Shown here one piece after another: positions 5,425 through 59,976 of a stretch of DNA of 64,000 bases. The position numbers and the translations under genes were made by a program. The DNA is taken from assembly GCA_963920765.1 (NCBI GenBank), contig OY987243.1, positions 26,097,419 to 26,161,418 on the forward strand, given 5' to 3'. The notes under the pieces are model-generated. The model did not search any database and was not told the origin of the DNA. It saw nothing but the letters and a program-made list of their open reading frames with translations. How positions within the stretch are numbered: position 1 is the stretch's first letter; each line of letters starts with the position of its first letter. The stretch comes from Ulota crispa. Lineage: Eukaryota > Streptophyta > Bryopsida > Orthotrichales > Orthotrichaceae.

Positions 5425-6059
5425 TTAACCCCTAAATGCCTATAAATGCCTATTTTGGGCTCTTAGGAATTTGCTTCAAATTGAACATAAAGGCAATATT
5501 TTAATAAGCTGTATCCAGTTGTAATCGTAAAAATTCAAACCAGATATGTTAGAGGTCACACAAGAAAAGAATACATAACAATTTCACTAATAGATTGGAA
5601 GATTATAATGTTTAATCATAAGGGTGTTAAAATTACAAACATGACTTGAAGCCTTTGAATCCTCTTTTCACATGTTGGATTTTAAAAAATGATCATCAAA
5701 AAAGTATAAGGTTAAAGAAAATAACATACATAACCCCAATCACTTTATATTTTTTCAAAATATTTTCTACAGTTTTTGCATATGAATTTTTTATATAAAT
5801 TTTTCTTCAAGATCTCTTGTATTTGAGGCTCATTTCCAAGAGCTCTCAACATTAGAGAAAGTCAAGACCCTTGCACAAAAGCTTGAATAAAAAACTCATA
5901 ATTGATCATTTTCAAAATCAAATTTTTGATCCTAAAATTAGACTTCACAACAAATAAATCCAAAATGTAAGCTATTAAAAATAGTAACTTAGTTAGGTTT
6001 ATTGAACTTTAGAGTATTACAAACACCAAAATTTGGTGCAGCAAGCATTTAGGGGTTAA
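5425..6059. mobile_element. TTAA-flanked MITE, piggyBac-like family A, copy 1
   Basis: The element (5429-6055, 627 bp) begins CCCCTAAATGCC and ends GCATTTAGGGG. It is flanked on both sides by TTAA. Its interior matches the elements at 21117-21769 and 48143-48795. There is no reading frame of note, so it is non-autonomous. TTAA target sites and CCC termini are typical of piggyBac elements. Confidence 0.8.
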
Positions 6060-6079
6060 TGATTTTTGGGGTAATTTTA

Positions 6080-6472
6080 GGGAGCAACTAGGTGGACACC
6101 CCCCAATTGCTACGAGGACACCCCCATAGTCAAATCTATTAAATTTTAGATTATTATTACACTGAAATATGAAATAAAATCAAAGAATACTTTAGTGTAC
6201 AAAAGCGCTACAAACATACAACAAATTTGCCTCATTTGTGACACAATTAAGAATCAAACCAGTAAATGAAGGGAGCAATTGGTTTAATTCCTAACCATGT
6301 CACAAATGAGGCAAATTTGTTGTATGTTTGTAACAATTGTAAACACAAATGTACGCTAAAGTATTGCTTTGATTTTATTTCATATTTCAACATAATAATA
6401 ATCTAAAATTTAATAAATTTGGCTATGGGGGTGTCTCCATAGCAATTGGGGGGTGTCCACCTAGTTGCTCCC
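6080..6472. mobile_element. hAT-like MITE, family D, copy 1
   Basis: The termini are long inverted repeats, GGGAGCAACTAGGTGGACAC and its complement. The 393-bp element folds back almost end to end. It is bounded by a perfect 8-bp duplication, TAATTTTA, at 6072-6079 and 6473-6480. Eight-base target duplications are the hAT signature. A second copy lies at 36054-36457. Confidence 0.85.
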
Positions 6473-6508
6473 TAATTTTATGGACACACCTTAAGTTTGC
6501 AATATTTG

Positions 6509-6890
6509 TATAAGGTAGCAAACACTCATAAGCGTGAAACTAAAGGTTTTGGAGTAGGAAAATCAATTGACAAACTTTGAAAAAAATATTGTAAATTAGC
6601 AAGAGGAAACTAAAAATATTGGCATCAATTTCAATGTTCCAATTTCATGTATTTGTTCACGAAGATTTTTCAAAGTCCTAAATCACTAAAAATGTATAGT
6701 TGTGTGTAGGAGATGCTAAAAACAATGCAATGGGGCACTCAAAACCGTCATGCAAATCACCTACAACCATCATTTTGTCACCCATAACCATCACTTTGTA
6801 ACCCACAACTAATTTTTTAAAGGTTTATAAGTCATTGACAGCTTGACACATGCATAGGTCACGCCCATAGAGACAATGGCAGTTATGGGT
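6509..6890. mobile_element. MITE family B (TAAGGTAG...CTACCTTA), copy 1
   Basis: Ends read TAAGGTAGCAAACACTCAT and the matching inverse near 6890. The interior matches 27189-27590, including the shared phrase TTTTGGAGTAGG. The target-site duplication is ambiguous because the termini themselves carry TAA/TTA, so I do not assign a superfamily. Confidence 0.65.
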
Positions 6891-6897
6891 GTTGCTA

Positions 6898-7135
6898 CCT
6901 TAGATAAGGTAGGAGGTTCATGAATCGACCATCTAAGGGTTGAAATTGAATTTGGGAGACAACTTTTTTAAATGTTTTTTTAGTAAATCTTCCTTGAAAG
7001 ACAAGAAGAATTGGCATCTAACCCAAGTTGTTTTGTGTTTTTGGAGCTTTATGGAATTAGTTATGAAATTTTAAAGTTGAAATGGCATAGGGTTCTAAAA
7101 TTGCCCACCTTCTCAAATGTACATTGCTTGTACCA
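6898..7135. mobile_element. MITE family G fragment
   Basis: Starts TAAGGTAGGAGGTTCATGAATC. It runs through a segment that is the inverse complement of most of the element in eIF3f intron 5 (39953-40280), including the GGGTTCTAAAATTG piece near 7091. The right end is missing or diverged. Confidence 0.6.
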
Positions 7136-7423
7136 TTAAAAGAAATTGAGCACTCCCAAGGGCTACAAGTTTGGTTGTTCCCAATGTTGGGAACCAGCCC
7201 TTGTTGGTTGTCAGGAAAAATTAAAAAACTAATATTTTATTTTATTTTTTATAATCATATCATCTATCGTGTAAATCAACATTGCTACACAGAACACATT
7301 GTGTACCTAAACCACAATCACATAAAAAAAAAATGTAGCATTTACAAGGGATTTGGGCCCAAGAAAGCGTTGTGAATTTGGATGTTCCTAATGCTGAGAA
7401 CTAGCCACTATTGGTGGTCCGAA
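7136..7423. other. Intergenic, short internal duplication
   Basis: About 50 bases at 7160-7210 (GTTTGGTTGTTCCCAATG...) recur in altered form at 7374-7424 (ATTTGGATGTTCCTAATG...). No gene is recognised. Confidence 0.4.
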
Positions 7424-8190
7424 AAAAATCAAAAAAATTAAAAAAATTAAAAAAATTAAAAAAATTAAAAAAATTAAAAAAATTAAAAAAATTAAAAAAA
7501 TTAAAAAAATCAAAAAAATCAAAAAAATTAAAAAAATTAAAAAAATTAAAAAAAAATTAAAAAAAAATTAAAAAAATTAAAAAAACTAAAAAAATCAAAA
7601 AAATTAAAAAAAATCAAAAAAATCAAAAAAATCAAAAAAATCAAAAAAATCAAAAAAATCAAAAAAATTAAAAAAATCAAAAAAATCAAAAAAATTAAAA
7701 AAATTAAAAAAATTAAAATAATTAAAAAAATTAAAATAATCAAAAAAATTAAAAAAATTAAAATAATCAAAAAAATTAAAAAAATTAAAAAAATCAAAAA
7801 AATTAAAAAAATTAAAAAAATCAAAAAAATTAAAAAAATCAAAAAAATCAAAAAAATTAAAAAAATTAAAAAAATCAAAAAAATTAAAAAAATTAAAAAA
7901 ATTAAAAAAATTAAAAAAATTAAAAAAATTAAAAAAATTAAAAAAATCAAAAAAATCAAAAAAATCAAAAAAATCAAAAAAATTTAAAAAATTTAAAAAA
8001 TTTAAAAATTTAAAAAAATTTAAAAATTTAAAAAAGTTTAAAAAATTTAAAAAAGTTTAAAAAAGTTTAAAAAAGTTTAAAAAAATTTCAAAAACTAAAA
8101 AAAACTAAAAAAAAATTTAAATTTTAAAAACTTTAAAAACTTTAAAAACTTTAAAAACTTTAAAAACTTTAAAAACTTAAAAGTTAAAAA
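7424..8190. repeat. A-rich 9-bp tandem array (TTAAAAAAA/TCAAAAAAA)
   Basis: About 60 copies of a 9-bp unit, TTAAAAAAA or TCAAAAAAA, occupy 7424-7980. They decay into TTTAAAAA, GTTTAAAAA and ACTTTAAAA variants up to 8190. Because the period is a multiple of three, the array stays open as a long Leu-Ile-Phe frame on the minus strand, which is an artefact and not a gene. Confidence 0.95.
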
Positions 8191-9183
8191 AAAAGTCAAA
8201 AACATTCTCTTTTTTTTTTCCAAAAAAATTATATATTCAATCATGTTTGACGTGGTCGCCCTAATGCCATGTCATACTACTGCAAGTTGCCTATGTGGAA
8301 GTGTTCTCAAAGTTCCCATAGTTTTGGGAGAAGGGGCCCATTCTTGGGTCCTAATCCCTTGTAATACTAAGGACATACATGCAAACATGCTTTCAATGAT
8401 TAGATTAGCAATCTATGCACTATGCGTCAGTCAAGCTACCTTTCACTCCATTCATAGAAGATTCCAAGAGCGTAAGGAATAACACGAAAGAAAGAGAGTA
8501 TATAATAATGAATCCCAAATACAACAAGCTCTCTCTCTCAACAACCTCACAAGACTTGACTTGGCAAAGATCAAATGCCAAATCAGGAGCGTAAACTCCT
8601 CTATCTACCCAAACCCTAACTCACTAGAATGAATAGACATCCACTAAATGAACTCCATTCGATGTGGCATGTACACAATGCCACATCATGTGATACATCT
8701 GGCGTGGTCAGACTACGACCAGGTCAATTTGCCCATGTGGAAGTGTTCCCATGTTCTGAGAGAATGGGCTCAAAATTCCCATAGTTTTGAGGAAGGAGCC
8801 CCTTTTTGGGCCCAACTCCTTTGTAATGCATAAATGCTTGTGTGGCAAAAAAAAAAAAAAAAAACGCAAAAATTTGAGCCCAAATAAAAAAAATTGAATC
8901 ACCACAATACAACAGTTCAATTCAAGAACTTGCACCCAATTTGTTAAATTTAAATTGGACCACAAATTAAATCCAAGGGCTATACTTTAGAAATAATCAA
9001 ATTTTTGACCTAACAGACAATATGATGAAATGTGAATTTGGCCAACTCCAAATTAAACCTGCACCCTATTTCAAAGTGGCCCTAAGATCCATAACTTTTC
9101 TAACCTCTCGATAACTTAGCATCTCAAAGCCAAAGACTACATTGGAAATAAATGAGTATCTCCAACACTAAATACTATATTTA
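8191..9183. other. Intergenic with a duplicated 130-bp motif and poly(A)
   Basis: Segments at about 8243-8375 and 8693-8835 are diverged copies of each other. Both contain CATGTGGAAGTGTTC-like and CCCATAGTTTTG phrases. The second is followed by an 18-base A run at about 8846-8863. No gene is seen. The middle part (8400-8660) has a CT-repeat and short direct repeats but nothing I can assign. Confidence 0.4.
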
Positions 9184-9561
9184 GGGAATTGATATGTGCA
9201 CATCAGGGGTTTAATATTTTGCACACCGCAAATTGAATTTGAAATATTTGAATTCAAATTTTGGATTTAGATATCTTGACTTAGTTTAGAATCACAAGAA
9301 GGTTACAATTGAACAATGCCTATTGGAAAAGCTTAGTTTGGGAGCAAATTTTTACCTATATCCGTATTTATAAAAAGAAGCTAAGCTTTTCCACTAGATG
9401 TTGTTTGATTGTAACCCCTTTGTAGTTCTAAACTAAATCAAGGTCTCTAAATCCAAATTTGAATTCAACTTTTCCAAATTCAACTTGTTGATGGTAAATA
9501 TCTAAAATTTCCTCCTCTAGTGTGTATATATCAAACCTCAAATATGCACATATCAATTCCC
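9184..9561. mobile_element. hAT-like MITE, family F, copy 1
   Basis: The 378-bp element starts GGGAATTGATATGTGCACAT and ends with the inverse ATGCACATATCAATTCCC. Flanking 8-mers are TATATTTA (9176-9183) and TACATTTA (9562-9569), an 8-bp duplication with one change. A relative is at 35389-35804 and a fragment around 49330-49470. Confidence 0.8.
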
Positions 9562-9576
9562 TACATTTAAATTGCC

Positions 9577-10312
9577 TTATCCCTTAAAGGACAGGCCTAC
9601 AACCATGAAGTTTATGTGGTATTGCAATCATCTTCTAGGAGTTATTTTTGTAATGTAATCAATATCAAAATTCAATATTACAATTTTAGTAGTAGAAGGT
9701 ATGTGCATACTACATGTATAAACAATGTTCATAAGTTTTGGTGAAAATTTGAAATTATTGTAATTTTTTGAAGCAAATGCTAAAGAAATTCATATTAATT
9801 ACAAAATGTATTCAATTTTGCCAAATTTTGTATCATGGATGTGAATCATGATGAAGATCATCATGATGGAGTTTTTCTTCCCATGTTGCTAAAATTAGAA
9901 AAAGTAACTATTCCATAATAATAGGTACTCAATTTGTGATAGTAATGAAAATTTCAAAACTTAATTTCTTTCACAATATTAAAGTACAAGGAGAAACTAC
10001 ATTTGGTAAACTTTCAAATGCTGGTTATGCTCAAACTAAAAATACATCATTTTAATAACTCATATTGAGTTTTGGTAAAAAAATTCTCAAAATTCAAAAT
10101 ACACTACACGGTGGTGCATCTTTAGAACTCAATTGGCAAGTGGGACCATTTTGTGAACATTATGCATACAAAAGCTATCTATCTACATGCTCTAAATTGC
10201 ATTACTCATATCCCAATGGAATCTAAGATGAAAAACAGTGTTATTCCACTGTCACAGCACTTTTCAGTCATCCAGAAGCCACAAAATGGCTTCTGCGACG
10301 TTTACGGGTTAA
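9577..10312. mobile_element. TTAA-type MITE, weak left flank
   Basis: The left end CCCTTAAAGGACAGG and right end GCGACGTTTACGGG fit the shared TTAA-element terminal consensus. The right flank is TTAA but the left is TTAT, so one base has changed or the left border is misjudged. The right end resembles that of 16120-16343. Confidence 0.5.
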
Positions 10313-10990: not shown

Positions 10991-11441
10991 CACGCGTTTT
11001 ACTCCGTATCTTTTTTATGTGACTTTTTACCCACCCTTTTGCTACCTGTTCCTCTCCCTCCCCCTTTCTTGAATTTCAAAGTTTGAGGAACATAGAGACA
11101 CCCCATGTTATAAAGATTTTCAAAATTATAATGTAATGCTTCAAAATATCAAATTTGAGAATTTATATGACTTTTCATAATTCCAAATGACTTTTAGAAA
11201 CTAATGACTTTCCATATTTCTAAATGATTTTTCACCCTCACCTTGGGTGTCTTTTCCTCTCTGTTTTCCCCTCTCTATTAAAACTTATAATGTTAATAGA
11301 GAATGTATGGCATGACACATCATTATACCATGAGACACTTTTATATGGTGACACCTTTATGACACCTTTATGATGAGACAAACACACCAACCTTTATAAT
11401 ATAGATTCTTATAGTGTAAAATGTCAAAAAAATTTGTCAGA
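10991..11441. other. Intergenic, nothing recognised
   Basis: AT-rich sequence with short imperfect repeats (for example ATGACTTTTCATAATTCC and ATGACTTTCCATATTTC near 11168-11220). No gene or transposon ends seen. Confidence 0.4.
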
Positions 11442-11445
11442 TAAC

Positions 11446-11930
11446 CTAACACAACCATACGATTCGCATACACAACCATACGATCCGCATACACAACCAT
11501 ACGATCCGCATACACAAGCATACGATCCGCATACACAAGCATACGATCCGCATACACAAGCATACGATCCGCATACACAAGCATACGATCCGCATACACA
11601 AGCATACGATCCGCATACACAAGCATACGATCCGCATACACAAGCATACGATCCGCATACACAAGCATACGATCCGCATACACAACCATACGATCCGCAT
11701 ACACAACCATATGATCCGCATACACAACCATACGATCCGCATACACAACCATACGATCCGCATACAAACCATACGGTCCGCATACACATACATATAGTCC
11801 GCATACATAAGCATATGGTCCACGTACATAAGCATACGATCAACATACATAAGCATACAGTCATCATAAATAAGCATACGGTCATCGTACACAAGCATAC
11901 GGTCCGCATACGCGTACAAGCACGAACACA
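11446..11930. repeat. 21-bp minisatellite upstream of ECHIDNA
   Basis: Tandem units of CATACACAACCATACGATCCG, or the G variant CATACACAAGCATACGATCC, repeat regularly to about 11760. They continue in degenerate form (CATACATAAGCATACGGTC) to about 11930. Around 20 units. The 21-bp period keeps several frames open on both strands, which explains the repetitive predicted peptides here; I do not regard them as genes. Confidence 0.95.
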
Positions 11931-11970
11931 TACATGTAAGCATAGCATCGGAACGAGAGGCTTGCGCACA

Positions 11971-12100
11971 AGGTTCGGAGAACACGGTCCCTGCTTAGGT
12001 TCGCAGTACACGGTCCCTGCTTAGGTTCGCAGTACACGGTCCCTGCGTAGGTTCGAAGTACACGGTCCCTGCGTAGGTTCGAAGTACACGGTCCCTGCTT
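11971..12100. repeat. 26-bp minisatellite, 5 units
   Basis: Five exact-length 26-bp units begin AGGTTCGCAGTACACGGTCC, at 11971, 11997, 12023, 12049 and 12075. A degenerate sixth follows from 12101. It lies directly upstream of the ECHIDNA 5' UTR, so it is probably in the promoter region. Confidence 0.95.
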
Positions 12101-15541: not shown

Positions 15542-16119
15542 TTAACCCCCAATGGACCAAGGGTTTTGGCATTTTTAGGAATGTGCTGTTTAATTTGTGT
15601 TCAAGGATTAAATTGCTATTGCAATAAAATTTGAGCGTTTATAGATTGGTCTTAATTGTATGGTTACATTCAACAGTACCACCAGTACTCTTTCGTCAAT
15701 ATTAAATCTAATTTTAGCCTTTCCGAATTGTAGTTATAAGTTCAGAATGTCAAGCATTCAAACATAGCCAGGTATTAATCGCTTGTCCTTCAACTAGTCG
15801 CTTCAAGCCAAAGGACTCTATTTCGTCGCATTGGTTCCTCAACTGCATGACATGAGCAAGGTATGGGACTTGTTAACTCCTAAAGGATGTTGCCTACCAA
15901 AAGTGTTGTATGTATTCCTATGAGGACCATTTAGTACTTGAAGAAATATCTTTATGACAAATGCCAAAAATACCCCTAAAAATCCAAGTTGATCAACAAT
16001 ATGTTTATGACTTGGCTTGAAATCTACAACTCCAATGGGATTCATGTGCTACTCAAATGTTTTGTATGTATACAATATGAGAGTCTGTATATGAAACAGC
16101 AACATCCTTTACGGGTTAA
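15542..16119. mobile_element. TTAA-flanked MITE, diverged termini
   Basis: TTAA (15542-15545) then CCCCCAATGGACC. The right end is GCATCCTTTACGGG-like (CCTTTACGGG) then TTAA (16116-16119). Termini fit the shared consensus CCCnTAAAGGAC with a few changes. Shares its right TTAA with the next element. Confidence 0.5.
15623..15628 (+). terminator. Possible ECH polyadenylation signal
   Basis: AATAAA lies about 250 bp after the ECH stop codon. It falls inside the TTAA-flanked element at 15546-16115, so the 3' end of the transcript may come from a transposon. Confidence 0.4.
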
Positions 16120-16347
16120 CCCTTGAAGGGCCCTTGGGCTCTATAGCTATGGTACCAAATACGGTCATAACCAATATTCATAAGTTTGAATCAGCTGGAA
16201 ATGAAGTATTACAACCATACATATTAAAGGGTTGTATGATGGTGGGTGCATAAAAAAAATTGGAAAGCCCTCAGAGTAGCTCAAATACGTCTGAACATAT
16301 GGCCATACATACAGCTGCAATGGGCTTTTGTGACGTTCAAGGGTTAA
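16116..16347. mobile_element. TTAA-flanked MITE, 224 bp
   Basis: CCCTTGAAGGGCCC at the left and GACGTTCAAGGG at the right, with TTAA on both sides (16116-16119 and 16344-16347). Non-coding. Immediately adjacent to the previous element, using the same TTAA. Confidence 0.75.
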
Positions 16348-21116: not shown

Positions 21117-21769
21117 TTAACCCCTAAATGCCCAAGGCCTTTTTTGAACTTCTAGGAATTTGTTCTAGACTAAACAAAAAGCCAACATTTTGATAAGTTG
21201 TATCAATTTTTTTAAAATTGTAACCATACAAATTCAAAATAGATAAGTTAGATATCACATAGGAAAAGAAAACACAATAATTCTTCTTATGGATTGAAAG
21301 ATTATAATGTTTGATCAAGAGGGTGTTAAAACTACAAAAATGACTTCAAGTCTTTTAATGCTCTTTTCACATGTCAAATCTAAAAAAACAATCACATGAA
21401 AAATATGGGTTCAAAGGATATAACATCCATAACTCCAATAAATTTACAACTTTTCAAAATCTCCTCTACAATGTTTTAAAATAAATTTCTAATGTGAATA
21501 TTTCTCCAAGATCTAGTGCATTTGAGGCTCATTTTCATGGGCTCTCAATACTAAAAAAGTCAAGATTGTAGTGGACACCCTTGCACAAAATCTAAACTAG
21601 AAAATTCACAATCAATAATTTTCAAAATCGGGTTTTAAAGCTAAAACTAGACTTCAAAAAGAATAATTTGAAATTACAAAATACTAAAAATAGCAGCTTA
21701 GTTAGGTTTTATTGAAATTCAAAGTATTGTCGGCACCAAAATGTGGTGCCTTGGGCATTTAGGGGTTAA
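21117..21769. mobile_element. TTAA-flanked MITE, piggyBac-like family A, copy 2
   Basis: TTAA, then CCCCTAAATGCCCAAGGCC. It ends GGTGCCTTGGGCATTTAGGGG, then TTAA. The 645-bp body is clearly homologous to 5429-6055 and 48147-48791. Confidence 0.85.
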
Positions 21770-22562: not shown

Positions 22563-25109
22563 TTACTTCTCAAACAACTCAGCTTCCTCTATAAAGTGAA
22601 TGTTATCATCAACGATGACGTCTTCAATTTCGAGGAAGTGCTCGACAGATTCGTCCTCCAATTTCCCAACATTATTTGGCTCGTCTGGCCAGTTCTTAGA
22701 AATAAATACCAATTTCTCTAAGTGCTCCATGCCAAGTCTACGCCGTTGTTGAGATAATATGACACCTGTAATGCTGAAAATTCTTTCAATTTCAACTTGA
22801 GATCCAACAACTCCGAGAATCTGTCGAGCCAAAAATGCCACATTTCGAAATTCTTTCTCATGCTTTCTCCACCAAATAAGGGGACTATCATAATCCCCAT
22901 CCGCAACATGCAGCCTTCTGAATAAGGACAGCTCGGATTTCAGCTGTTCTAGAATTACTTCTTCTGCTGAAGCTTGGGCTCCAAAAATTGAATTCTCAGA
23001 AATGGGGGTAATAGGTTCTTGGCTCTGAGCTGTTGGATGTAAACGCTTATAGCACTGCATTAACAACGGTAACAGGACCAGATTGTCATACTCGAATACG
23101 ATACTCACGACTTTCTCCCCTCCAACATAGTCGCGCACAAGACCCAGCCCCTTGAAACGCGGATCCAACATGAGCGCCAGCATGTTGTGTGCACTCTGCC
23201 GAGAAAAGGTTCCAGCAAATGATAATAAGGGCTCGAGCACGGCTAACACCTCTTCTTCCATACGTGACTTCAGAACCAACAGTTCACCATCGAAGTCGCC
23301 ATCCCCTTGTGAGGTAGATACCTCACCAGCAAGAAAGTGAGTTTGTCGAAAGTGAATCGACAAAGAAAGAGCGGCCGCAAGAGCCTCAGATAGGAACCAA
23401 AACCCATGATTTTGCTTCAGAACGCCCTGTTTGACCACAGGAATAAGGGTCTCAGTAGCTGCCCTTGCAACAGCCCACATCTGTTGAGTTAAAATCGGCA
23501 ACTGCGTATCAGCATTTTGACTTGACCAGAAGCTGGTGATAGCTTCACTATAATCCAAAGACTCCTGAAAAAATAATGCTCTTGACGCAAATCGGGTCTT
23601 AACAGGAGGCTTCAAAGTCCGATGTGACAGCTGCTTCTCCGCACAAGCCTTTGCCCACTCTTGCCTTCTCTTTCGAGAGTGCTGAATCCACGTTATAGAT
23701 TTTTGTAGAGAAACCTGTGCATCCTTCAAGCTAACAGTCTTCAACCCATCACATACCTGAATAAACATCACGCACCCAGAAAAAACATAAGATGCTAGTT
23801 CAAAGTTCTCATGTTCATGAACATTGGCACGAGAGATAAACACCAATAGTAGAACCGGCACAACAACGACAGCAAATAGTAACAAAATCCAGATACCCCG
23901 TGTCATGTTTCCAACATATGTGTTGGATAAACAGCAATAGTTTATATTCGCAAAACAGAAAGCAGTTGAGCAAATATTCAGGAGGGATTTGAACGGCTTT
24001 CAATTCACCTTCGAATCGTCAGTCGCATGATCGCAACATCTGGACAAGGCATGGCCAAAGCAAGTGCCTGAAAATGGCTCCGGTAAATCAAGAAGCTCAC
24101 ACGAGACTACAGAGGCCAATGCTGTAGTCACGATATCAAGACTGGGACTCTCATCTTTTACATATGCAATTATCCGCGAGGTGAGATTGTACCGGTTCAG
24201 AATGTCTTGCAACTGTACCGCGATTGGGGCCTGCAACATGCTAGACGTGTCAAGCAGTCCAATAGTAACATTGCAAGGGACCCATGCATCGTTGATGAAG
24301 TTGACTACAACTGCATAAATGGCCCCCTCTGAACATGACATCCACAAATCAAAGGATATCGTGGCGGTTGTGCATCCTGCAAGGGAAGGGACAACGTATT
24401 TCTCCAAGGTCTTCGTTACCAACTTCGGAATCATGTCGTCCAAGAACTCAAGGCGTGAAGGAAACAAAATGCGCGGACACTGGCTGAGCAGCAACCTTCT
24501 TAACCAAACATTCTCTACACTGGAGAGCGGCTGATGCGCCTTCATAATGTACAATGCCAGGTCCTCAAGAAATTGTTGATGTTGTTCGTCCTGCTTTTGT
24601 GGGTTAGAGCCACCATATACATAAACCAACGAACCTGGAAAAGATCCCGACCTCTTCTTGGAAGGTTGCCGAGGTGTAATCAAAGAAGGTTCAGAAGAAC
24701 TTCGCAATGCTTTGTATCTGCCGAACGCTTGTGGATGCTCAGCATGCACATGTCGTTTCATGGCAGAAGTGCCGTGCTCTTTGTTGTACAGTACTACACC
24801 TTTCCGGCAACGTGTACTTCGTAGACCCAATGTTTCTCTTCTGCTCGGATGACAAACAATACATCTCATAAGCTGAGGCTTTACAAGGTCCACTGGGCAG
24901 CTATCATTGGTTGTAAAAAATGCCCATGTAGGAGAGTTTCGATGATAAACCCTCCAGAATGCCTGCTGATTTTCTAAAGCAGTAAGCTGTTCCATCATGC
25001 ACTCTTCGGAGTCCTCTCCGCTCCTAGAGGAGAGAACAACAGCGCTGCTTCCATCAATGAGCGCTAATGGAAGCCCTTCTGTCATGGAATTCGAATTAAG
25101 AGCAGTCAT
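22563..25109 (-). CDS. hAT-family transposase-like protein (BED zinc finger, dimerization domain), 2 exons
   Basis: Exon 1 is 25109-24009 and exon 2 is 23756-22563. The intron is GT/AG in phase 0, giving 764 aa. A BED-type zinc finger shows C83-x2-C86 and H120-x4-H125. The RNase-H-like core has D254 (in SFDLWMS) and D319 (in VKDESPS). A C350-x2-H353 motif sits in the insertion region, and E691 is in the VEIERIFS block. The C-terminal hAT dimerization region is WWRKHEKEF through SQQRRRLGMEHLEKL. All residues expected for DNA cutting appear present and both exons are open, so it is either a recent element or a domesticated gene. I could not find terminal inverted repeats or an 8-bp duplication. 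The copied STI1 promoter lies about 1 kb upstream in the same orientation. An in-frame stop shortly upstream supports ATG 25109. Confidence 0.88.
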
Positions 25110-26088
25110 GGTGCGGAAGCTTAAAGGAGTCGAATTTGCCCGAAAGCTATCCAGTTACTCAGTGTAATTCCATACCCTGCACCAGTCACATTGTACATCC
25201 CATGCGTCAGTAAAAGCCGTCACCACCAAAAAATGAAATCTAGCGAGCATGCGCCCCTGAGAAAAACCATAAGATACAAGTATAAGAAGTGGAAGCTTGA
25301 GCATATGGTGCGTACCGAATGAACGAATCTAGAAGAATCTTGATATAGAAGATTCGCCAAAAAACAAAACTAACTGGACCATCAATCACATAACCGCAGC
25401 CGAGATCCCAGCCAGAGTTGTACACGAATCAGGAGCTCATGTCCGGGGGTATGGCAAAACCGAAGCAGAAGAAACTACCAAAGATTACAACAACCACTTT
25501 AGTATTCCAACAAAGCTGAATAATAACCAAACTGTCTTGAAAATAAATATGCTAAAAATCTATCCCACTCAATTCTGTGCACTGGAAATCTACAAAGTTA
25601 CGCTGGAATTCAAAGAGCATACTTCTGGCTATGTGAGAAATTTGTTCCTTCTATTTAATCCAGAAAAAGTAAAAAAATAACACAACTAGTCAAAATCAAG
25701 AGAGCCAATGCACACTAGATCATGTACAAACAAGAAGTTCACGCTTGACTTCAGTCTATGGTAAAATAAACTTACTCCTTAAAAAAGTACCGAGGCTTCC
25801 TTGTTTCAAACAATTTGTTCCTTTCAAACGTATCCAAGAACGCAGTTAACCATGTCCAAGGACGGCAGAGGTCACACTACGACCTCCTCCAGCTGATGCC
25901 CAACACAACCTTGGGATCATTAGATCAAAGGCATCGTCCATTAAATACTCTACTCTAACGCCAAACAAAAAGTCACCCTGTCAACTCCGATTCTCAGGAT
26001 TCGAGTCATGGAGTTGCAAAAAACGCTCCGACGCTGTTCACATTATAGCAACTGTTCTAACCTAATACACCAACTTGAATTAGTGGAG
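25110..26088. other. Spacer between the hAT ORF and the STI1-derived promoter copy
   Basis: Moderately AT-rich, no long open frame. If transcription starts at the STI1-like copy, this would be 5' leader or intron sequence of the hAT gene. No repeat ends identified. Confidence 0.35.
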
Positions 26089-35280: not shown

Positions 35281-35388
35281 AAAAAATCTTCTTATCTCAA
35301 AAACCCCATGAAAAAGCAAACCAACCCTTAAAGTGATTGTTTTAGAGCACAGTACCTTAATTGAAAGCAAGTCAAGGATTTAAAAAAA

Positions 35389-35804
35389 GGGAATTGGTAT
35401 GGGCACACCGGGGATTTTAGTATATGCACTCCCCCTTGCGGGATATATTTTAGATTTTACCCTCAAAAAGCTAAATTTGAACATTTTAAATTCAAATTTG
35501 GACTTAGAGACCTCAATTTAGTCTAGAACCATAAAGTAGGTTACAATTGAACTAACACCCCATAAAAAAACTTAGCTAGGGGGCAAATTATTACTTTTAT
35601 TTTTGTTTGTAGAAAAAACTAAGTTTTTTTGTTGGGTGTTGTTCAATTGTAACCTCCTTTATGGTTTTAAACTAAATGAAGGTCTCTAAGTCTAAGTCTA
35701 AGTTCAAAAGTTTTAAGTTCACCTTTTTGATGATAAAAATCTAAAATTTATCCCGGAAACGGGTGTGCATATATCAAACCCAGGGTGTGCCCATATCAAT
35801 TCCC
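35389..35804. mobile_element. hAT-like MITE, family F, copy 2
   Basis: GGGAATTGGTATGGGCACAC at the left and GTGCCCATATCAATTCCC at the right. Flanks TAAAAAAA (35381-35388) and TAAAAAAT (35805-35812) form an 8-bp duplication with one change. Homologous to 9184-9561. Confidence 0.75.
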
Positions 35805-35825
35805 TAAAAAATCATCAAGACAACT

Positions 35826-43192: not shown

Positions 43193-44121
43193 TGTTTCTT
43201 AATATTTCTCAAGGTCAAGCCATACCAAACAAAACCAGCTTTTCAAAACAACATTTTGTAAAAAAAAAGTGGCAACTATTACGTCTGTGTGAAAAAGCAA
43301 ATTCTTTGACTTCTTACTCCTACTTTTCTAGTGAATCTGGTGGTCCATTCAAAATTGACGTTTTTGAGAGTTTAGAAATTGATGTCTCAAACCAATGATG
43401 AAAACTTTATATTTAGAAGAACAATAGATGAAACTTGAAAAAGTGATTGTCCCCAAATTTTTCAAAAACACAAGTTACTTCTTCATCCGTTTCAAACCGG
43501 CAGTTTTGGCCATCGAGACCCACGTTTTGGATTTTGGTTTCCACCCTCCCCATACTTCTCACGGCCCACTATTTTGTATGTTTGTATATCTGTCGGTATG
43601 TTTATTCTTTTTGGTATTTTGCAAGGCCCACTTTTTGTGTTTTTTTTAAATTCCTCCTTTGTTTTTGAGAGTGCTAGAATGGTGAAAATCTAACATTACG
43701 GTGGACGGCACATGCTTGCACATATATATACCACAAGTTTACAGCTACACTCAATATATGTTGCCTTAACCGGCCCCTAAAGGACCAAGAAGCCCTTTTT
43801 TTTTTGGCTTTTTTAATATTTAGGCAAGCATTTATTGTGTAAATCCTTGAGATAAGATTGTGAAAATAAGGGTGTATATGCTCATATTGAAAAGTTTGTA
43901 TTCCTTCAAAAGAAACATGAAATTTAATGGTTTTTGAGTAAGATATGGTATCATATGTGATTTAGGTGTAAGCACAATTAAGGAGAGTCAACAACAAATT
44001 TTGCCCATTGACCAAGCTGTTGTAAAATAATTTTGAACATTTTGTGGGCAACACCCTTCCTCAATCCTTTGTTTTTTATTTGTTTTAAGGATGCCTATGT
44101 AATAACTTTCATTTTTTTAGC
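43193..44121. other. Intergenic with one degenerate TTAA-type end
   Basis: TTAACCGGCCCCTAAAGGACC at about 43768 resembles a TTAA-element left end, but no partner was found. Otherwise unassigned. Confidence 0.3.
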
Positions 44122-45878: not shown

Positions 45879-45879
<1 letters not shown>

Positions 45880-46456: not shown

Positions 46457-46494
46457 TATATATATATGTGTGTGTGTATATATATTTATATATA

Positions 46495-46897
46495 GGAAAT
46501 TGTTAAAGCAACACCCAAAATTGCTAACGTACATGTGAACATGTAAGTTGAGAATTTAATGCTATTTTTTTCATTCAAGTGGTCCATCATTCATTCAATC
46601 ACAACATTATCACCTCCTTGAAAGAAAGAAGAACAAATACAAATTTTAGTTGAATTTTTATTGCTCCATTGCTAATTTTAAATGTATTTTTGCTTTAAGT
46701 AATTCAAAAGTTGTATAATTTTAGTTTCAAATTCAAACACCTCCAATTTTTTTGAATACAACCTTAGAATGATAGAGGTAAATAAAATATTTTGATTTAA
46801 ATTCAAAAATATAGCATTAAATTCTCACACATCATGCTCAAAAGCACACCTTGGAGGTGTGGTGTTAATAATTTTTGGTGGGACTTTAGCAATTCCC
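46495..46897. mobile_element. hAT-like MITE, family M
   Basis: GGAAATTGTTAAAGC ... GCTTTAGC-type inverse ending GCAATTCCC. Flanking 8-mers are TATATATA and TATCTATA, differing by one base. 403 bp. Confidence 0.6.
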
Positions 46898-46967
46898 TAT
46901 CTATAATCTATAAAGAAATTGCAGGGACTACTTGTCCGTTTGGTCTTAGTGACCAACAATATCCGGA

Positions 46968-47505
46968 GGATGGGGGGATGGGGAGATAGGGATGTGATGG
47001 GGGGATAGGGGTGTGATGGGGGCATAGGGGTGTGATGGGGGGATAGGGGTGTGATGGGGGGATAGGGGTGTGATGGGGGGATAGGGGTGTGATGGGGGGA
47101 TAGGGGTGTGATGGGGGCATAGGGGTGTGATGGGGGGATAGGGGTGTGATGGGGGATAGGGGTGTGATGGGGGATAGGGGTGTGATGGGGGATAGGGGTG
47201 TGATGGGGGATAGGGGTGTGATCGGGGATGGGGTGGGATGGGGGTGTGATGGGGGATGGAGGGGGGTTGAGGATGGGATGGGGGAAGTAGGGGATGGGAT
47301 GGGACGTGGGGATGGGACGTGGGGATGGGATGTGGGGATGGGATGTGGGATGTGGGATGTGGGTTTGGGATGGGACGTGGGGATGGGATGTGGGGATGGG
47401 ATGTGGGATGTGGGATGTGGGTTTGGGATGGGACGTGGGGATGGGACGTGGGGATGGGATGGGGATGTGGGATGAGGACGTGGGCTATGGCCTGTGGGGG
47501 AAGAT
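46968..47505. repeat. G-rich minisatellite
   Basis: The first part (to about 47225) is about 12 units of 18-19 bp, TGATGGGGGGATAGGGGTG. The second part is a related GGGATGGGACGTGGGGAT / GGGATGTGGGATGTGGG array with a higher-order repeat of about 75 bp. Almost every unit carries two or more G runs of 3-6, so the plus strand has strong quadruplex-forming potential. Long Pro/Gly-type open frames here are artefacts of the period. Confidence 0.95.
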
Positions 47506-47690
47506 TAAGACACACATAAAAAGTACATATCATTTACTCTACATTTAGAGCTAAATGGGTTTACCAACTCGTTTATACATATAATCTTTCATTATGCTCT
47601 TTTTGCCTAAACATCCCAGTTTCATACAATGTTTTATTGGAGGTGGTAGTAAAATGGTGCCAAAACAATTCTCAGTTTTTGGGCCTCTAA

Positions 47691-48121: not shown

Positions 48122-48142
48122 AGTTAATAGCCAGATCCTATA

Positions 48143-48795
48143 TTAACCCTAAATGCACAAGGCCTTTCTGAACTTCTTGGCATTTTCAAGAAAGTGAACA
48201 ATCAACCAATCTTTTCATAAATCTCATCAAATTTTTTTCAAATTGTAACAGTACAAATTTAAACTTGACATGTCGAAGATTACATGGAAAAAGAAAACAC
48301 AACAATATCACTTATAGTTTGAAAGATTATAACATTTGAACATGAGGGTGTTAAAATTATAAAAGTGACTTGAAGTCTTCTAATCCTCATTTCACATGTC
48401 AAATCTAAAATGTTGGTCATCAAAAAAATATGAGGTTTAAGGTCATTACATGTTTAACCTCAACCAATTTATGGCTTTCACAATCTACTCCTCTATTTTT
48501 TTTAAATGGATTTCTAATGCGGATTTTTCTCCAAGCTCTAGTATATTTGAGGCTCTTTTTCAAGATCTTCCAACACCAAAAAACTCAAGATTGTAGTGGA
48601 CACCCTTGTACAAAATCTTGAATAGAAAAATCATGAACATTCATTTTCAAAATCAGATTTTTGATACTGAAAATAGACTCCAAAACAAACCTGTGTTCAA
48701 CAGAAAATACCAAATATACTGATTTGATAAAATTTCATTTGTCTTCAAAGTTTTGCAAACACCCAAATTGGGTGCCTTGGTCATTTAGGGGTTAA
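48143..48795. mobile_element. TTAA-flanked MITE, piggyBac-like family A, copy 3
   Basis: TTAA then CCCTAAATGCACAAGGCC; ends GGTGCCTTGGTCATTTAGGGG then TTAA. Homologous along its 645 bp to the copies at 5425 and 21117. Confidence 0.85.
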
Positions 48796-51300: not shown

Positions 51301-52237
51301 TTAACCCCTAAAGGACCATTGTCTGTTTGGCAGACAAATGGGATTTCAGGCATGTACCTATGACTAAACTACTTTGCACGATTTTTTGAAACTTTTATTA
51401 AAGATGAGGAATTCAAAGATCTATGTGGTAATGTAATTTTTTCTTCATTCCGACATATGATGAAGAAGTTATCCATGAATTTATGAAAATTTGGGGAGGA
51501 CTGCCCGTCTCGGCAACCCAAAACTTCTTTAAAAATTACATTTTTTTACAATAAAAATTTGAAATTGGTTTTTTAGACTTATATAGACGTGGGGAGCTTT
51601 GAATCATTCAATTTTGATAGATGAGATGAAAGTTATGAGGAGTTTTTGTTTACAGGTAGTTTTAGATTCTCTACTCTAAAATAAACTTTGAAGTCCTTTA
51701 TTTTACTCAATTTTCATTATTTTGGAAAAAAACAAAACGAGAGGATGTAGACTGTTCATCACAACATTAGAACCGTTGGGATTTGCATTTTTCATTTTAA
51801 TAATTAAATTCTTAACAATTTAGTGTTTTGACTCATTCTCTACTTCTTTTTACTTACTATTTTTTCCCATGTTTTGTATAGTTCCAATTGATTTGAAAAT
51901 TCTCCCACACACACCTAATTTGGTCTCCTACATGGGTAAAAATAAACCTCAACTTTGTGTAGAGTAGTTTTTTTGATCTAAGAGTGGTCAAAGCCTTCTA
52001 AAATTTCTAGGCAGCACCAAGAAAAAACATTTTTCCGCAATCCGGATGTAATTATCTCACTCATTTTTGTGTAGATTGAGCTGATTATTTTACCCATGTG
52101 TGCCTCTTGTAGTCTACTATAAGATCTTACGGTTGAATTCTTGTAAAAAAATTTTTTTACCACTATACTTGCTTCCCTAAAAGTGGCAGTTTTCTATGTT
52201 TTTTGCAAAAAAAATGGCTTGGTCCTTTACGGGTTAA
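51301..52237. mobile_element. TTAA-flanked MITE, family P, copy 1
   Basis: TTAA, CCCCTAAAGGACCATTGTC ... TGGTCCTTTACGGG, TTAA. 929 bp. Its first third matches the left arm of the next element (AAATGGGATTTCAGG..., ACTATTTTGTG...). Confidence 0.8.
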
Positions 52238-52954
52238 CCCGTAAAAGACCATTGTCCCTTGGGGGGACAAATGAGATTTTGGACATATACCTATGGCTAA
52301 ACTATTTTGTGTGATTTTTTGAAACTTTTATGGATGATGGGGAATTCAAAGACTTATGTGGGCATCAAATTTTTTCTTCAATTAGGCATTTATTGAAGAA
52401 GTCAAAAAAGAATTTTTTGGAAAACATGCAAGATCAGGCAGCCCAATAACTCCTTTAAAAATTGCATTTAAGAAAAATAAAAGTGTGAAATAGGTTCTTT
52501 AGACTTATATATAGGTGAGGAGCTTTGAATCATTCAATTTTGATTGATGAGATGAAAGTTATGAGAAATTTTTGTTTGCGGGTAGGCATGATTTCTTTCA
52601 AAACTGCACCTACCCGCAAACAAAAATTTCTCATAACTTTCATCTCATCAATCAAAATTGAATGGTTCAAAGCTCCTCACCTATATATAAGTCTAAAGAA
52701 CCTATTTCATACTTTTGTTTTTTTTAATTCAATTTTTAAAGAAGTTCTTGGGCTGCCCAATCTTGCATGTTTTCCAAAATTCTATTTTAACTTCTTCAAT
52801 AAATCTCAAATTGAAGAAAGAATTAGATGCCCACATAATCCTTTAAGTTCCCCATCATCCATAAAAGTTTCAAAAAACCACATAAAGTAGTTTAGCCATA
52901 GGTACATGCCCAAAATCCGATTTGTCCCCCAAAGGGACAATGGTCTTTTAGGGG
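52234..52954. mobile_element. Foldback TTAA-type element with arms of about 350 bp
   Basis: CCCGTAAAAGACCATTGTCC at 52238 and GGGACAATGGTCTTTTAGGGG ending 52954. The two halves are inverse complements over nearly the whole length, meeting at a small loop near 52590 (TGCGGGTAGG / CCTACCCGCA). The left TTAA is shared with the previous element; the right flank is CGTT rather than TTAA. A transcript would form a long double-stranded RNA. Confidence 0.8.
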
Positions 52955-53037
52955 CGTTTTATTTTGTTGTGGCTCGGCCTTTGTAATGCCTTATTTGTTG
53001 AGTGTTAGAGCATTTGCATAGTTATACACCAAAAGTC
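52955..53037. other. Short spacer between TTAA-type elements
   Basis: About 80 bp of unique AT-rich sequence. Confidence 0.4.
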
Positions 53038-53950
53038 TTAATCCTTTAAGGACCACGCAACCATATTTTGGTTGTTGGGGGTGATTTTTGGCCTATAGGT
53101 TGAAATTGCTCAATAATTTGGAATTTGGTTTTGAAGAACGCATGTGATCACAAGAATTTTGCATCCATCTAAAAAAATAACAATGCAATTGGGTATGTGA
53201 GTTGACAAATAATGGTGTTTATACGGCATGGCTTTAAAATACATATCCAATTTTTGTCAAAGATGGATCAAAGCAACAATACAATACATCAAGTATGCAA
53301 GAAGAATGTCAACTTTCAATTGCACAATTCTAAAAAATTTCAAATTGCTTAAGAAATACGCTTGTATTGTTTTCATATACAGTAGTAGTATAATTGTAGT
53401 ATTTGAAGATCTATTGAAATGGTGTTGTCATTTCATCTTTAAAACTTGTCATCCTACATTTAAGGCCAATTCTTGATTGTTTTCACCAATTGGATTTTCC
53501 AGAATAATTATCAAATATCTTGTAGAACCGTTTTAGGGTAGCAAAGAAAGTGGGTTTTTTGACCCTTTTGTCCACTTAGCTACACCTTGTGATTGCTATT
53601 TTGTCAATTTTGTGTGAAACCAATCTTATTGTAAAGGTGGAGAACCTTGCTTTCTAGAAATGTAAGGCTCTTTTCAATCAAAGCTTGCATGAAGCATTAA
53701 CATTCAAAACCAAACAAGCATGAAACACTATAGACTTTTTGCATACGGCTCACTCAATCATTATAATGTTTCACCTCTAATAGTAGATCTAGCTGAAATT
53801 GTGGTGCTTTACAATAAACAAGGTTTACTTCCCATTTGTATGGTTGGATTACTGAAAATGGGTCCATATTTGAGTCAATTGCACATCTAAGTTTACATCC
53901 GATGTTTTTAGTGGATTTTGTGAAAATGGGTGTGCTCCTTAAAGGGTTAA
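53038..53950. mobile_element. TTAA-flanked MITE, 905 bp
   Basis: TTAA, TCCTTTAAGGACCAC ... GTGCTCCTTAAAGGG, TTAA. Termini are inverse with two mismatches. Interior unlike families A and P. The 82-aa open frame at 53228-53476 has no domain and I do not call it. Confidence 0.75.
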
Positions 53951-55974: not shown

Positions 55975-56582
55975 TAACAATGTAGTGTGTGAAGATTTCT
56001 CCACCCCATTCTTCACCTACAAAAGAGAAAAACTTCTTAGTCTTCAAAAAATGGAGCCTTAGCAGATCTCGGACAGGTTGCCATGACCCCCATTCTCTAA
56101 AAACTGGGAATAGGGTGGAGAGGGTGTGAAAATTTGTTTGGCGTGTATGGATTTTTAAATTTTGTCTTTACTTAGAGCAAGCACTTAGCTAGCTAGTGTA
56201 AAAAACAATTGAATGAGTGATTTTAGAATAGATGAAAAAGGAACAAGTGCACAATGTATTGGTAGAATCCCCAGCATGTAGAACCTTGTAGCTTTACTCT
56301 CAAAAGAAAGGGGGAGGTGTAAAATGTGGAATAAATCATATTTGTTTTGTGGTTGAGGTTGAAATAATCAAGTATGTAACTTGTTTGACACAACTTTCAC
56401 GGCAAACAAATAATTATTAGGTGAGGAGAAGGCCTAGTTTTCAAATCAAATATGTGCCGTTGGTTTGAGTGAACAAATCTATGAGAATGTGGTTTTTTGT
56501 GGTAGACCCTTGATTTTGAAACCTTTTGATCATGTTTTAGACATAGAAAATAGTTGAACATTTAGATGTATATGTACACACC
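55975..56582. other. Intergenic, nothing recognised
   Basis: AT-rich, no element ends. Confidence 0.4.
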
Positions 56583-56712
56583 CACTACAAGGAAATCATG
56601 GTTGAATGTACAAAAAGTTGACAAAAAATGTGACCTAATTTACAGTATATTGTAGGTTAGGTCACAACTTTTGTCAACTTTTTGTAAATTTGATCATGAT
56701 TTCCTTGTAGTG
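56583..56712. mobile_element. CACTA-type MITE, 130 bp
   Basis: Starts CACTACAAGGAAATCATG and ends CATGATTTCCTTGTAGTG. Perfect 3-bp duplication ACC on both sides. Folds into a near-complete hairpin. Confidence 0.85.
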
Positions 56713-57090
56713 ACCCTAAGCCATTAACATAAGTTGTGTTTAAACATCAATTTTTTTGAGGACATCTAAACATTTTTGGGTGATGTTTCATAGCATTGCA
56801 AGAAATACAAAGACCTTTCAAGTGCATTTGGAGGCACCACTTTATCACTTATTATTGTTATTGTTACTTTAATTAAAATTTTATGTTTAGAAGTCATTGG
56901 AAGAAACGAATAACACTTTTATACCAAAACACAATGTGACTGCATTGCTATAAGTACAATCAGTACTATTCCTAGACTTCAAAATAATTGCAACTGTCGA
57001 TTGTTAGAATTGCATCTAAGCAAACATAGACATGTATGCAATGAGTACTATGTAAAACACAAGATGGATGATTTTTTTAAATGATTTATT

Positions 57091-57266
57091 CACGAGTAGA
57101 AAATTGTGTTAGAACTCTTTTTTTCATATCATGTAGTTTTTGTTGAGTTTCTTATTTCCAACATTGATTCTGCATTGGAAATAAGTAACTTTGCGTTGGA
57201 AGTAAGGAATTTAACAAAAATTACATGATATGAAAACATGAATTCTAATACAGATTACTATTAGTG
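57091..57266. mobile_element. CACTA-type MITE, 176 bp
   Basis: CACGAGTAGAAAATTGTGTTAG ... ACTATTAGTG (left terminus one base off CACTA), with 3-bp duplication ATT. The inner arms (ATCATGTAGTTTTTGTTGA and inverse) pair. Confidence 0.75.
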
Positions 57267-57356
57267 ATTACTTGTTAATTTTCCCAATTTGATATATTAT
57301 TTTGCAATTTTGGAGGTTTTAGGGTCTTGGATAGTATCTAACAAATGTATATATCA

Positions 57357-57493
57357 ATAGTAGAAATTTGTGTTGAAGTCAACATAAACTACATGATATT
57401 TTCATGCTTCTAATGCAAAACGCAAAAATTTGCGTTAGAAGCAGGATAACATCATGTAGTTTATGTTGACTTCAACACAAATTTCTACTAGTG
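57357..57493. mobile_element. CACTA-type MITE, 137 bp
   Basis: CAATAGTAGAAATTTGTGTTG ... CAACACAAATTTCTACTAGTG, with 3-bp duplication TAT. Near-perfect hairpin. Confidence 0.8.
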
Positions 57494-59362
57494 TATATAC
57501 ACACATATATACATATATACATATATGGCAAAGAATGCTTCCATACACCTTCTTTGCAAATTTCAAATCTGTTAGAAGTAGTATGCAAAATTTGTAGCCA
57601 ATAAATCAAATCTCACATAATTGAAGGATAAAAATAATATATAAGAATTTCTTGCAACAACCTTTTAGTACAAAAATATGCTTTAACAAATGATTGTGAG
57701 CATTTTGAAGCTCTTCCTTACTTCATAACATTTTAACACAAAGTTGGAATGATAATAATATCATTATATTCATGCAAAAAATTTAGTTATCCACCGCTAA
57801 AAAGATAATGATTGATAACAAAGACCTTTGTAATTTTCATGAGATTTGCACTATAGTGATTGAACTATGTAATTTTTTTTGAAGAAGAGCATTTTCCCTT
57901 GCTTAAATAAGGTTAAGCTTGCAAGTTTTTCTTGATGTTTTGCTTTCTAAGTTTAAGATCAATGGTTCATAGAGGTCATTATTTGATCACAAGTTGCCAG
58001 CAAAATTAAAATTTATTGGTATCTTAAATCTCAACACCGTATTTTTGGAAATGCGTGTGTTTATGTTTATGGGTATAGTTTCAATATAAACATGTTTTCA
58101 TAAATCGTAGTCACAACTTATCATTTGTCACAAATTGTATAAAAATTACACAGTTTCTTGTGATCATTTAGGTTCTACGCTTTAAAAACTAATCCCTAAT
58201 TGCCCTAACTCTCCAAAGCCTATGTTCTACACAAGGAATGGAGCCCTTAAAGTAGTGTTTTGTCCCAAAAATAATTTGCTCACTCAAAGTAATGTTTGAT
58301 TATTTAAGCTTGACATTGTGTTTATGACCACTTTGATGAAATTGAAATCAACAATGCGTTTAGGCAAAGATATATGCAAAAACACTAAAAAACCCTAAGG
58401 AAATTGGGCTTTGAAGGGTCAATAAACAACATGCATCAGTTTTGTATGGCTATTCATGCTATGAAACAATGTTGTATGCTCTTATGTGTAAGTTTGGATA
58501 TTGTAAAGCACAAAAATGTCCTAAGGTAGTAAAAGAAGGTTTTCTTGTTTAGTATGTCAAGGAAAGATCTTTGACCTCAATTTTGCAAGACTTATCAGCT
58601 CTTATATATTCTCTTAATTATTTTCAACACTATTGGCTAATGAAGCACCTTTGCACCAAATCATGTATCTTAGAATCAATTTAATATGAAGATACAACGT
58701 CTTAACTTACATTATTGAGCTTCTATGATTTAGCTCCTTATGTAACTTTTGTTCAAAGAATAATCAATTCATGAAACATGCCCAAACCACAAGTATTATG
58801 AAACTCCATGCAAGCATAAGAAAACAAGTCTAAATTATACATGCAAAAAAATTATCACTTAATTATATCAAACACTACTCATGCTGAAAAGTTGAATATA
58901 ACTCTCAAGTTTGAGAAGTGAAGAAATGGTACTAGAAGTGCTTCACACTACAACACTGTGTCCTACATCCCACTTTTCATTTGTGAAAGTTCACTTTAAT
59001 GCAAATTCTCAAATTTGTTGGATTATCAAAGGCAAAAAGAGGTTCTAAAGAAAGTCTTAGATATTCTATGCAAGATATTAGTGGGACTTGGGTTAAAGGT
59101 TGGATTTTGCAAAGTGTTTGACTCAAACCTTAAGTAAAGTTTCACCTTCCTTGACCTCAAAACTTCCAAAAAGTGATGTCATGTAAGCAAAACGCATTCA
59201 ATTGAGACGTGGAACTCAACATGGAACATTGTGCTAAACGCCCCTTATTAAAACCTTTTCTTCTTGACTAGTGCCATCCAAAATTTCCTTTTCATGCATT
59301 GATATTAAGTTTATTATTACACACCTCACTTCCAACAATCATATATATTTTAGGTACGTAAA
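57494..59362. other. Long intergenic stretch, nothing recognised
   Basis: AT-rich, no gene, no transposon ends detected. Confidence 0.4.
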
Positions 59363-59608
59363 GGGCGGCTCACACTATGTCTCATGTCCCACTAAAATCT
59401 CAAAATCCAATTGGTTGAGAGCCAAAAGTTAGGACTTGGCAATCCACGTTGTGTTCCAAGCCTCACGTCTTGGTTTGCAATACATTTTGCCTATATGGTA
59501 ATACTTTTAGAAAGTTTTTGGTGCCAATCTTTGGGCCAACCAATTTGCTAAACCCAATTGTTTGCTCAAGTTCCACCAACCTGTTTGCATAAAATATTCA
59601 TAATTTTC

Positions 59609-59976
59609 TTAACCCTTAAATGCCAAGCTAGTCAATATGGCTGCTTGTTACAATGGCACTATAGTAGTGTAGCAAGTGCCCACATATTTCAATATTGTTT
59701 CCAAAAATTGCATAGTTCAACATTGCATGTTATCCTCATGAAAATTGCAAGAAGGGCAGCATGGGACCTAACACCATGTTTGTGAATATTCTCACAATTT
59801 GGATTACCTAAAAATATGAGTGCATTCAATGAGGTAATTTCTTGCCTTCCATGATGAACCATGTCTACATAATAATTTTTAAAAAAAAATCAAATGAAGA
59901 ACAATTTTTTATCCTACAAAGTGTTTATTTGTTATCCATTGGACAAAACATGTCCACATTGATGTCTAAGGGTTAA
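59609..59976. mobile_element. TTAA-flanked MITE, 360 bp
   Basis: TTAA, CCCTTAAATGCCAAGC ... GATGTCTAAGGG, TTAA. Nested in the element 59363-60575. Confidence 0.75.

Follow-up and report, generated by a model that had tools for sequence, protein, structure and literature searches.

Which transposition system produced the ten short TTAA-flanked elements found in one stretch of moss DNA? The stretch, hereafter the window, comprises 64,000 nucleotides of the Ulota crispa assembly GCA_963920765.1 (contig OY987243.1, positions 26,097,419 to 26,161,418 of the forward strand). A preliminary description of it, made from the sequence alone, had proposed a radiation of piggyBac-like miniature inverted-repeat transposable elements (MITEs), with one transposase, encoded elsewhere, mobilising many unrelated passengers. 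We conclude, with a probability of roughly 0.95, that the window elements are non-autonomous miniature members of the piggyBac superfamily in the moss nuclear genome. This conclusion is based on TTAA-CCCYTNANNGNC ends that occur in very high number, on the duplication of TTAA, and of no further bases, at the single window element amenable to this test, and on longer elements of the genome (5.0-6.3 kb) that have ends of the same kind and carry a piggyBac DDD transposase. The proposed piggyBac type is borne out by transposase-bearing elements with the same ends and by empty sites with a single TTAA, and the proposed radiation by ends that number in the tens of thousands genome-wide and by families with many candidate copies.

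The shared ends in the window and in the genome

At the ten starts listed in the preliminary description, the TTAA is present at nine and replaced by TTAT at 9577, and the CCC-like end after the target site holds except at 53038, which reads TCC. The motif TTAACCCNTAAAKG is exact at just four of the ten, and some starts carry two or three mismatches. TTAA on both sides, claimed for eight elements, is found at eight of the ten and again at eight after boundary correction. When at most one mismatch is allowed, the window contains 15 instances of TTAACCCNTAAAKG, compared with a mean of 0.38 in shuffled sequence (largest value, 3; none of 100 shuffles reached 15).

The genome, 274.8 Mb, was then searched with the same patterns read backwards as controls. 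Exact TTAACCCNTAAAKG occurs 13,752 times in the forward and 13,673 times in the reverse orientation (27,425), against 14 and 12 (26) for the control. The 16-base form TTAACCCNTAAATGCC was found 2,382 and 2,379 times (4,761; control, 1 and 0), the 16-base form TTAACCCNTAAAGGAC 6,260 and 6,185 times (12,445; control, 0 and 0) and the wider form TTAACCCYTNANNGNC 21,051 and 21,098 times (42,149; control, 43 and 49, or 92). At all eight loci cut from the first listed ends, an inverse partner lies 650-1112 bp downstream, with at most three mismatches per pair. Among the first 100 listed TAAATGCC ends, 24 neighbour pairs lie within 2 kb, of which 22 face each other, two point in the same direction and none face apart; the sizes range between 72 and 1,503 bp and are most frequent around 650. 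Very short facing TAAATGCC pairs of 72-79 bp, seen at C1:241512-241590, C1:531562-531640, C1:3324724-3324795 and C1:3362792-3362870, are possibly minimal elements with little beyond the two ends.

Might the common ends be a chance or compositional motif? The starts with two or three mismatches lend this idea something, as does a loose 16-base form with two mismatches, which gave 7 single ends in a reversed 250-kb sample, against 76 in the sample itself (the window, eight loci chosen for ends and 20 chosen for transposase, and thus biased by choice). A fuzzy pattern applied to the same sample returned 21 pairs, forming nine groups, against none in reversed sequence; two of the 21 are alternative pairings of one element (15542/15873 and L008), and the two-mismatch rule missed 48143, 52234 and 59609 of the ten listed elements. 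However, every count far exceeds its shuffled or backward-read control, and the boundaries of most scored copies coincide with the motif or miss it by no more than a few bases. We therefore regard the probability of a chance motif as negligible.

The target site at uninterrupted copies

A single TTAA at empty sites had been put forward as a check, which was carried out in paralogous form. The family A element at 21117..21769 (653 bp) is inserted at a TTAA of a dispersed repeat. The joined flanks of the element gave 40 matches: two are these flanks, and the other 38 are copies that continue across the join at 84-88% (best 40 of 2,186 candidates; candidates, here and below, are a loose first look in the genome search and not copy counts). 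Among 21 inspected copies (20 of the 38 plus L035), 19 carry TTAA at the join, one TTAG and one TCAA; in L058, a member of this set, an additional base directly follows the join. The uninterrupted repeat copies are clean at the join, but they may never have held the insertion.

The transposase element at L041:1015-6039 interrupts a local tandem repeat, the other units of which are uninterrupted. The units differ at the join (GTTTAAAAG and GTCTAAG versus GTTTAAGTG), and this second case is only suggestive. Matches to the joined flanks of the element at 51301 proved to be copies of the window's own elements, and were discounted as trivial.

Longer elements with the same ends carry a piggyBac transposase

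The PF13843 (DDE_Tnp_1_7) profile gave 120 matches in the genome, with a best E value of 1.3e-73, on C1-C11 (best 116 of 528 candidates scored), and matched none of 14 control genomes. The spread of the matches over C1-C11 argues against contamination. At least one internal stop is present in 110 of the 120, in a count that disregards introns; with stops in most scored matches, the burst may be over or nearly so.

Twenty transposase loci (L029-L048) were taken with their flanks and searched for TTAA-flanked inverse ends. Both ends were found in 11 (L029, L030, L032, L033, L034, L036, L037, L038, L041, L042 and L046), which delimits elements of 5.0-6.3 kb, seven with exact TTAA on both sides and four with one side altered; one end was found in L031, L044, L045, L047 and L048 (weak in L045 and L047). 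Some of these ends are the best of many choices, the weakest being those of L036 and L041. An inverse-repeat score was not accepted by itself as evidence for ends, since in L031 an AT-rich pair that lacks CCC reaches 10 of 12 as well. The interval L046:695-7315 was likewise rejected as one transposase element, as a distinct MITE occupies its right part (6347-7315), and 695-6350 was used instead. L029 and L038 align end to end (5,028 columns, 90.5%) and the outer flanks of L032 and L042 gave no match, which indicates mobile elements with defined boundaries. L032, L042 and L048 have long internal blocks and one whole end region in common.

A DDE_Tnp_1_7 transposase lies between such ends in L032, L033, L034 and others. 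As the preliminary description anticipated, there is a longer, same-ended element elsewhere that encodes a transposase: L032:1067-6812 (5,746 bp) has TTAACCCCTAAATGCC at both ends and matches PF13843 at 2.6e-59, with one stop inside the matched stretch. Its best relatives among solved structures are piggyBat (9c0f, 1.7e-16) and then 6x67 (3e-13), labelled 'Transposase', which we take to be Trichoplusia ni piggyBac. Equivalents of the piggyBac catalytic residues D268, D346 and D447 (PMC2533014, as excerpted) are present in 18 of 20, 14 of 20 (second site by hand count) and 17 of 19 of the copies that cover them; 12 of 20 have the complete set. The moss transposases also have the P...Y...M..VD..DQ motif, as in the piggyBac superfamily, and a Cys/His cluster can be read by eye at the C-terminus of L032, for which a Pfam search gave no match at 0.01.

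Sola3 and Kolobok use TTAA target sites as well. Were the elements Kolobok-type MITEs, the shared target site would be explained, but Kolobok ends are given as AG/RR in the available text of PMC6004289, versus CCC here, and the transposase inside same-ended elements, as in L032, is a PF13843 piggyBac transposase; we consider a Kolobok origin very improbable. Another TTAA-using superfamily such as Sola3 could instead have made the short elements, with the piggyBac elements as unrelated neighbours, and Sola is reported in Physcomitrella (PMC9033089, in the portion available). However, transposase elements and MITEs share ends, in family P to ~300 bp, and the end variants follow the transposase clade, so we give this explanation very little credence.

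Several transposase lineages with their own ends

The single transposase of the preliminary description is not supported. The 20 transposase stretches are 27-80% identical to one another (median, 35%). In a FastTree phylogeny, TAAATGCC ends fall in the L032/L042/L048 clade, TTTA..GACC ends in the L033/L044/L046 clade (the left end of L046 is ATTAAGGATC) and TCATTGCC ends in the L029/L038 clade; L034/L041 and L030/L047/L040 form further clades, with no end found for L040. Clade support is 0.98-1.00, and 0.58 for L031 beside the L032 clade. The apparent fit of end variants to clades, as read from the tree, and the 27-80% identity together indicate that this genome has several piggyBac lineages side by side, each with end variants of its own. 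That a single lineage moved all elements draws some support from the likeness of TAAATGCC and TAAAGGAC ends and from the weak grouping (0.58) of L031 with the L032/L042/L048 clade, by which one lineage could cover families A and P. Nevertheless, L033/L044/L046, L029/L038 and L034/L041 are separate, well-supported clades with ends of their own, which makes a single lineage unlikely.

The link between short and long elements

The MITEs and the transposase elements have ends of ~16-21 bp in common, plus diverged sequence to 33-62 bp. The ends of L032 and L042 match those of family A over 33-55 bp at 78-91%, the match being 33-49 bp long for L032, and the right end of the family A element at 5425..6059 matches L032 over 37 bp at 84%. 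The right end of L031 aligns with that of family P at 85% for 62 bp, beyond which a weaker similarity continues to ~300 bp. Bases 66-300 of the L031 right end match family P (three of four members tried) and the L002/L003 family (two of two) at 70-75%. Measured against 100 letter shuffles per comparison, z is 5.4-7.0, and of 144 comparisons these five alone exceeded z 5. The transposase elements compared in full with MITEs numbered nine plus five (L031, L037, L038, L042 and L048). Similarity that reaches ~300 bp suggests that family P and the L002/L003 family probably acquired one end region from an L031-like element.

A repeat at 9230-9572 and 35382-35808 of the window is related to the interiors of L032 (element bases ~1008-1430) and L042 (4082-4411). 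It matches the transposase-element interior in both orientations and is probably another nested repeat.

From the shared ends we infer that such transposases mobilised the MITEs in trans. On established piggyBac biology, transposase from the 5.0-6.3 kb elements would have bound the ~20-bp terminal repeats of the short elements, which would then have been excised by hairpin-type cutting and inserted at new TTAA sites; TTAA is restored on piggyBac excision (PMC10905368, in the text available). Each of several transposase lineages would have driven its own MITE families via its own end variant, among them TAAATGCC, probably TAAAGGAC, TTTA..GACC, TCATTGCC and others.

Several observations weigh against the assignment of the window elements to piggyBac and against this mechanism. 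The empty sites are paralogous copies of a repeat and do not represent alleles; the clean empty-site result holds for one window element alone (21117-21769). Terminal bases are mostly CCC, with CCCT in some lineages and CCCC in the commonest (CCCCTAAA), and one end in each of L030, L036 and L041 begins CTCC, CCTT or TACT. The hallmark start of piggyBac terminal inverted repeats is given as CC[C/T]T in the accessible part of PMC2872659, whereas the commonest ends here start CCCCT. Four of the 20 transposase loci are without any end (L035, L039, L040 and L043) and five are single-ended; L031 itself is without a recognised left end. An intact, expressed transposase was not demonstrated among the scored matches, in which stops were counted ignoring introns. 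The interiors of family A match no sampled transposase element beyond the 33-55 terminal bases, save for scattered 20-27 bp blocks, and the middle parts of families A and P could be traced to no sampled transposase element. The same applies to the middles of all the MITEs compared, scattered short blocks aside, except for the MITE inside the interval initially taken for L046. Support for an origin by internal deletion is confined to a single end in each of family P and the L002/L003 family.

The window elements and their families

With corrected boundaries, the ten elements span 6,090 of the 64,000 bases (9.5%). They are 232-937 bp long with inverted ends, and their longest stop-free stretch is at most 87 amino acids outside the palindromic copy (123 amino acids there); no captured gene is evident in the stop-free stretches examined. 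Short, non-coding, uniform in length, high in copy number and bounded by inverted ends, they have the properties of MITEs, and most scored copies are approximately full length.

The claim that families A and P are each internally related was upheld. Family A comprises, beside the element at 21117..21769, those at 5425..6059 (635 bp, TTAA on both sides, ends CCCCTAAATGC) and 48143..48795 (653 bp, TTAA on both sides, left end lacking one C). Family P comprises the element at 51301..52237 (937 bp, TTAA on both sides) and a fold-back of the family P left half at 52234..52957 (724 bp), which has on its left the TTAA common with 51301..52237 and on its right GCGT. The arms of this near-palindrome are 89% identical. 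For the query 51301-52957, the best 40 of 11,683 candidates are approximately full-length family P copies at 85-91%, among which no other clear copy of the fold-back arrangement was evident.

The remaining elements had been taken for unrelated passengers, but the families searched genome-wide show hundreds to thousands of candidate copies and are better described as many MITE families. The element at 9577..10312 (736 bp, TTAT left, TTAA right) has 39 other scored copies among 367 candidates, at 88-93% identity, with 29 of the 39 matching end to end. The element at 53038..53950 (913 bp, TTAA on both sides, ends CCTTTAAGGA) has 41 further matches, of which 39 reach 90-93% and the other two 81-84% (best 40 of 2,416 candidates). 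An interval of 15542-16119 was rejected as one element: its 40 non-self matches all lie in approximately the last 247 bases (one match extends back to base 296 of 578, and one is a partial second match), which places the true start at 15873. The resulting element, 15873..16119 (247 bp), has TTAA on both sides and inverted ends that share TAAAGGATGTTGC; the best 40 of 1,360 candidates were scored for its family. It adjoins 16116..16347 (232 bp), one TTAA being common to both, and the latter has an 84% identical relative at L041:193-424. Finally, the element at 59609..59976 (368 bp, TTAA on both sides) and a 1,112-bp element of L004 have internal blocks in common (81% over 144 bp and 83% over 78 bp). 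A lone TAAAGGAC-type end (CCCCTAAAGGACCAAG) at window position 43774 is preceded by CCGG, not TTAA, with no partner seen, and is perhaps a truncated element.

Host and neighbouring features

That the host is a plant, as first described, agrees with the PsaL protein of this genome, which places it with moss: the best matches among solved structures are 6l35, 7xqp, 8htu and 7ksq (288-301 bits; next, 267), the last three of which we take to be from Physcomitrella. The first, 6L35, is from the moss Physcomitrella patens (PMC7884438, in the part available).

Genes in the window include an AP2-domain gene and an STI1/HOP-like gene. Two adjacent open frames at 22563-25154 on the minus strand, the first with a hAT C-terminal dimerisation domain (PF05699, 9.9e-13) and the second with no Pfam match, are probably a hAT transposon copy. 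An identical 40-base stretch at 4686 and 26557, on the plus strand in both places, suggests a repeat, or the duplication of a segment, close to the HOP-like gene. The long stop-free frames of short repeats at 11377-12024 and 46897-47533 (AYDPHTQ-like and SHPHPIP-like) are probably tandem repeats, not genes.

Discussion

The moss elements resemble T. ni piggyBac and piggyBat in the TTAA duplication, the CCC ends, the PF13843 domain, the DDD residues, the sequence motif and, by eye, the Cys cluster. They differ in their moss host, in the commonest ends (CCCCTAAA) and in that one genome contains several deep lineages. In flowering plants, the Stowaway and Tourist MITEs are also short inverted-repeat elements of high copy number, with other target sites. 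Unlike the moss MITEs, they are filed under Tc1-Mariner and PIF-Harbinger (PMC9033089, as excerpted). The both-ended transposase elements, at 5.0-6.3 kb, are longer than the ~2,472 bp given for well-defined piggyBac in the accessible text of PMC10813416. Coral CMITEs, to judge from the available part of PMC2872659, are likewise short TTAA-flanked piggyBac MITEs, with several in a row and a helper that has the same ends and weak similarity beside them; however, they are ~100 bp long with conserved interiors and variable ends, whereas in the moss most elements measure 230-1,100 bp, and it is the interiors that vary and the ends that are similar. Kolobok of Xenopus, with its T2-MITE family, likewise combines a TTAA target with MITEs, but differs in its AG/RR ends and transposase (PMC6004289, same portion).

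A 2022 review of land plants names six plant superfamilies with terminal inverted repeats (Tc1-Mariner, hAT, Sola, MULE, PIF-Harbinger and CACTA), and piggyBac is not among them (PMC9033089). According to the available part of a 2023 paper that deals with piggyBac as a tool for plants, all DNA transposons known from plants leave footprints (PMC10905368). A fern study lists 1,230 small PiggyBac-labelled repeats totalling 122 kb (PMC6890710, as excerpted), and piggyBac-like elements are said to occur in 'plants', with none named in the available portions of PMC8086355, PMC10140906 and PMC10813416; in the accessible text of PMC10619864, on a moss, 'piggybacking' has a different meaning. No report of piggyBac from a moss or other plant was found among the titles and abstract openings listed by the literature searches, with most subscription journals outside the coverage. 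Within the literature covered, this kind of element is known, and the host and scale appear to be new.

Tens of thousands of piggyBac-type ends in a moss go against the published list of plant superfamilies. More tentatively, the genome might represent a land plant with an entire piggyBac ecosystem, in which deep lineages diversified with their own ends, numerous MITE families with differing interiors were amplified on hardly more than an end of ~16-20 bp and transposition proceeded without footprints at genome scale, perhaps with activity to this day and perhaps with an origin outside plants; we hold this broader picture to be possible rather than probable. This moss is a natural plant system for looking at precise excision. 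Because element interiors differ, ends are alike and several matching lineages coexist, its genome lends itself to asking how short a sequence suffices for MITE mobilisation and how ends and transposases diversify together.

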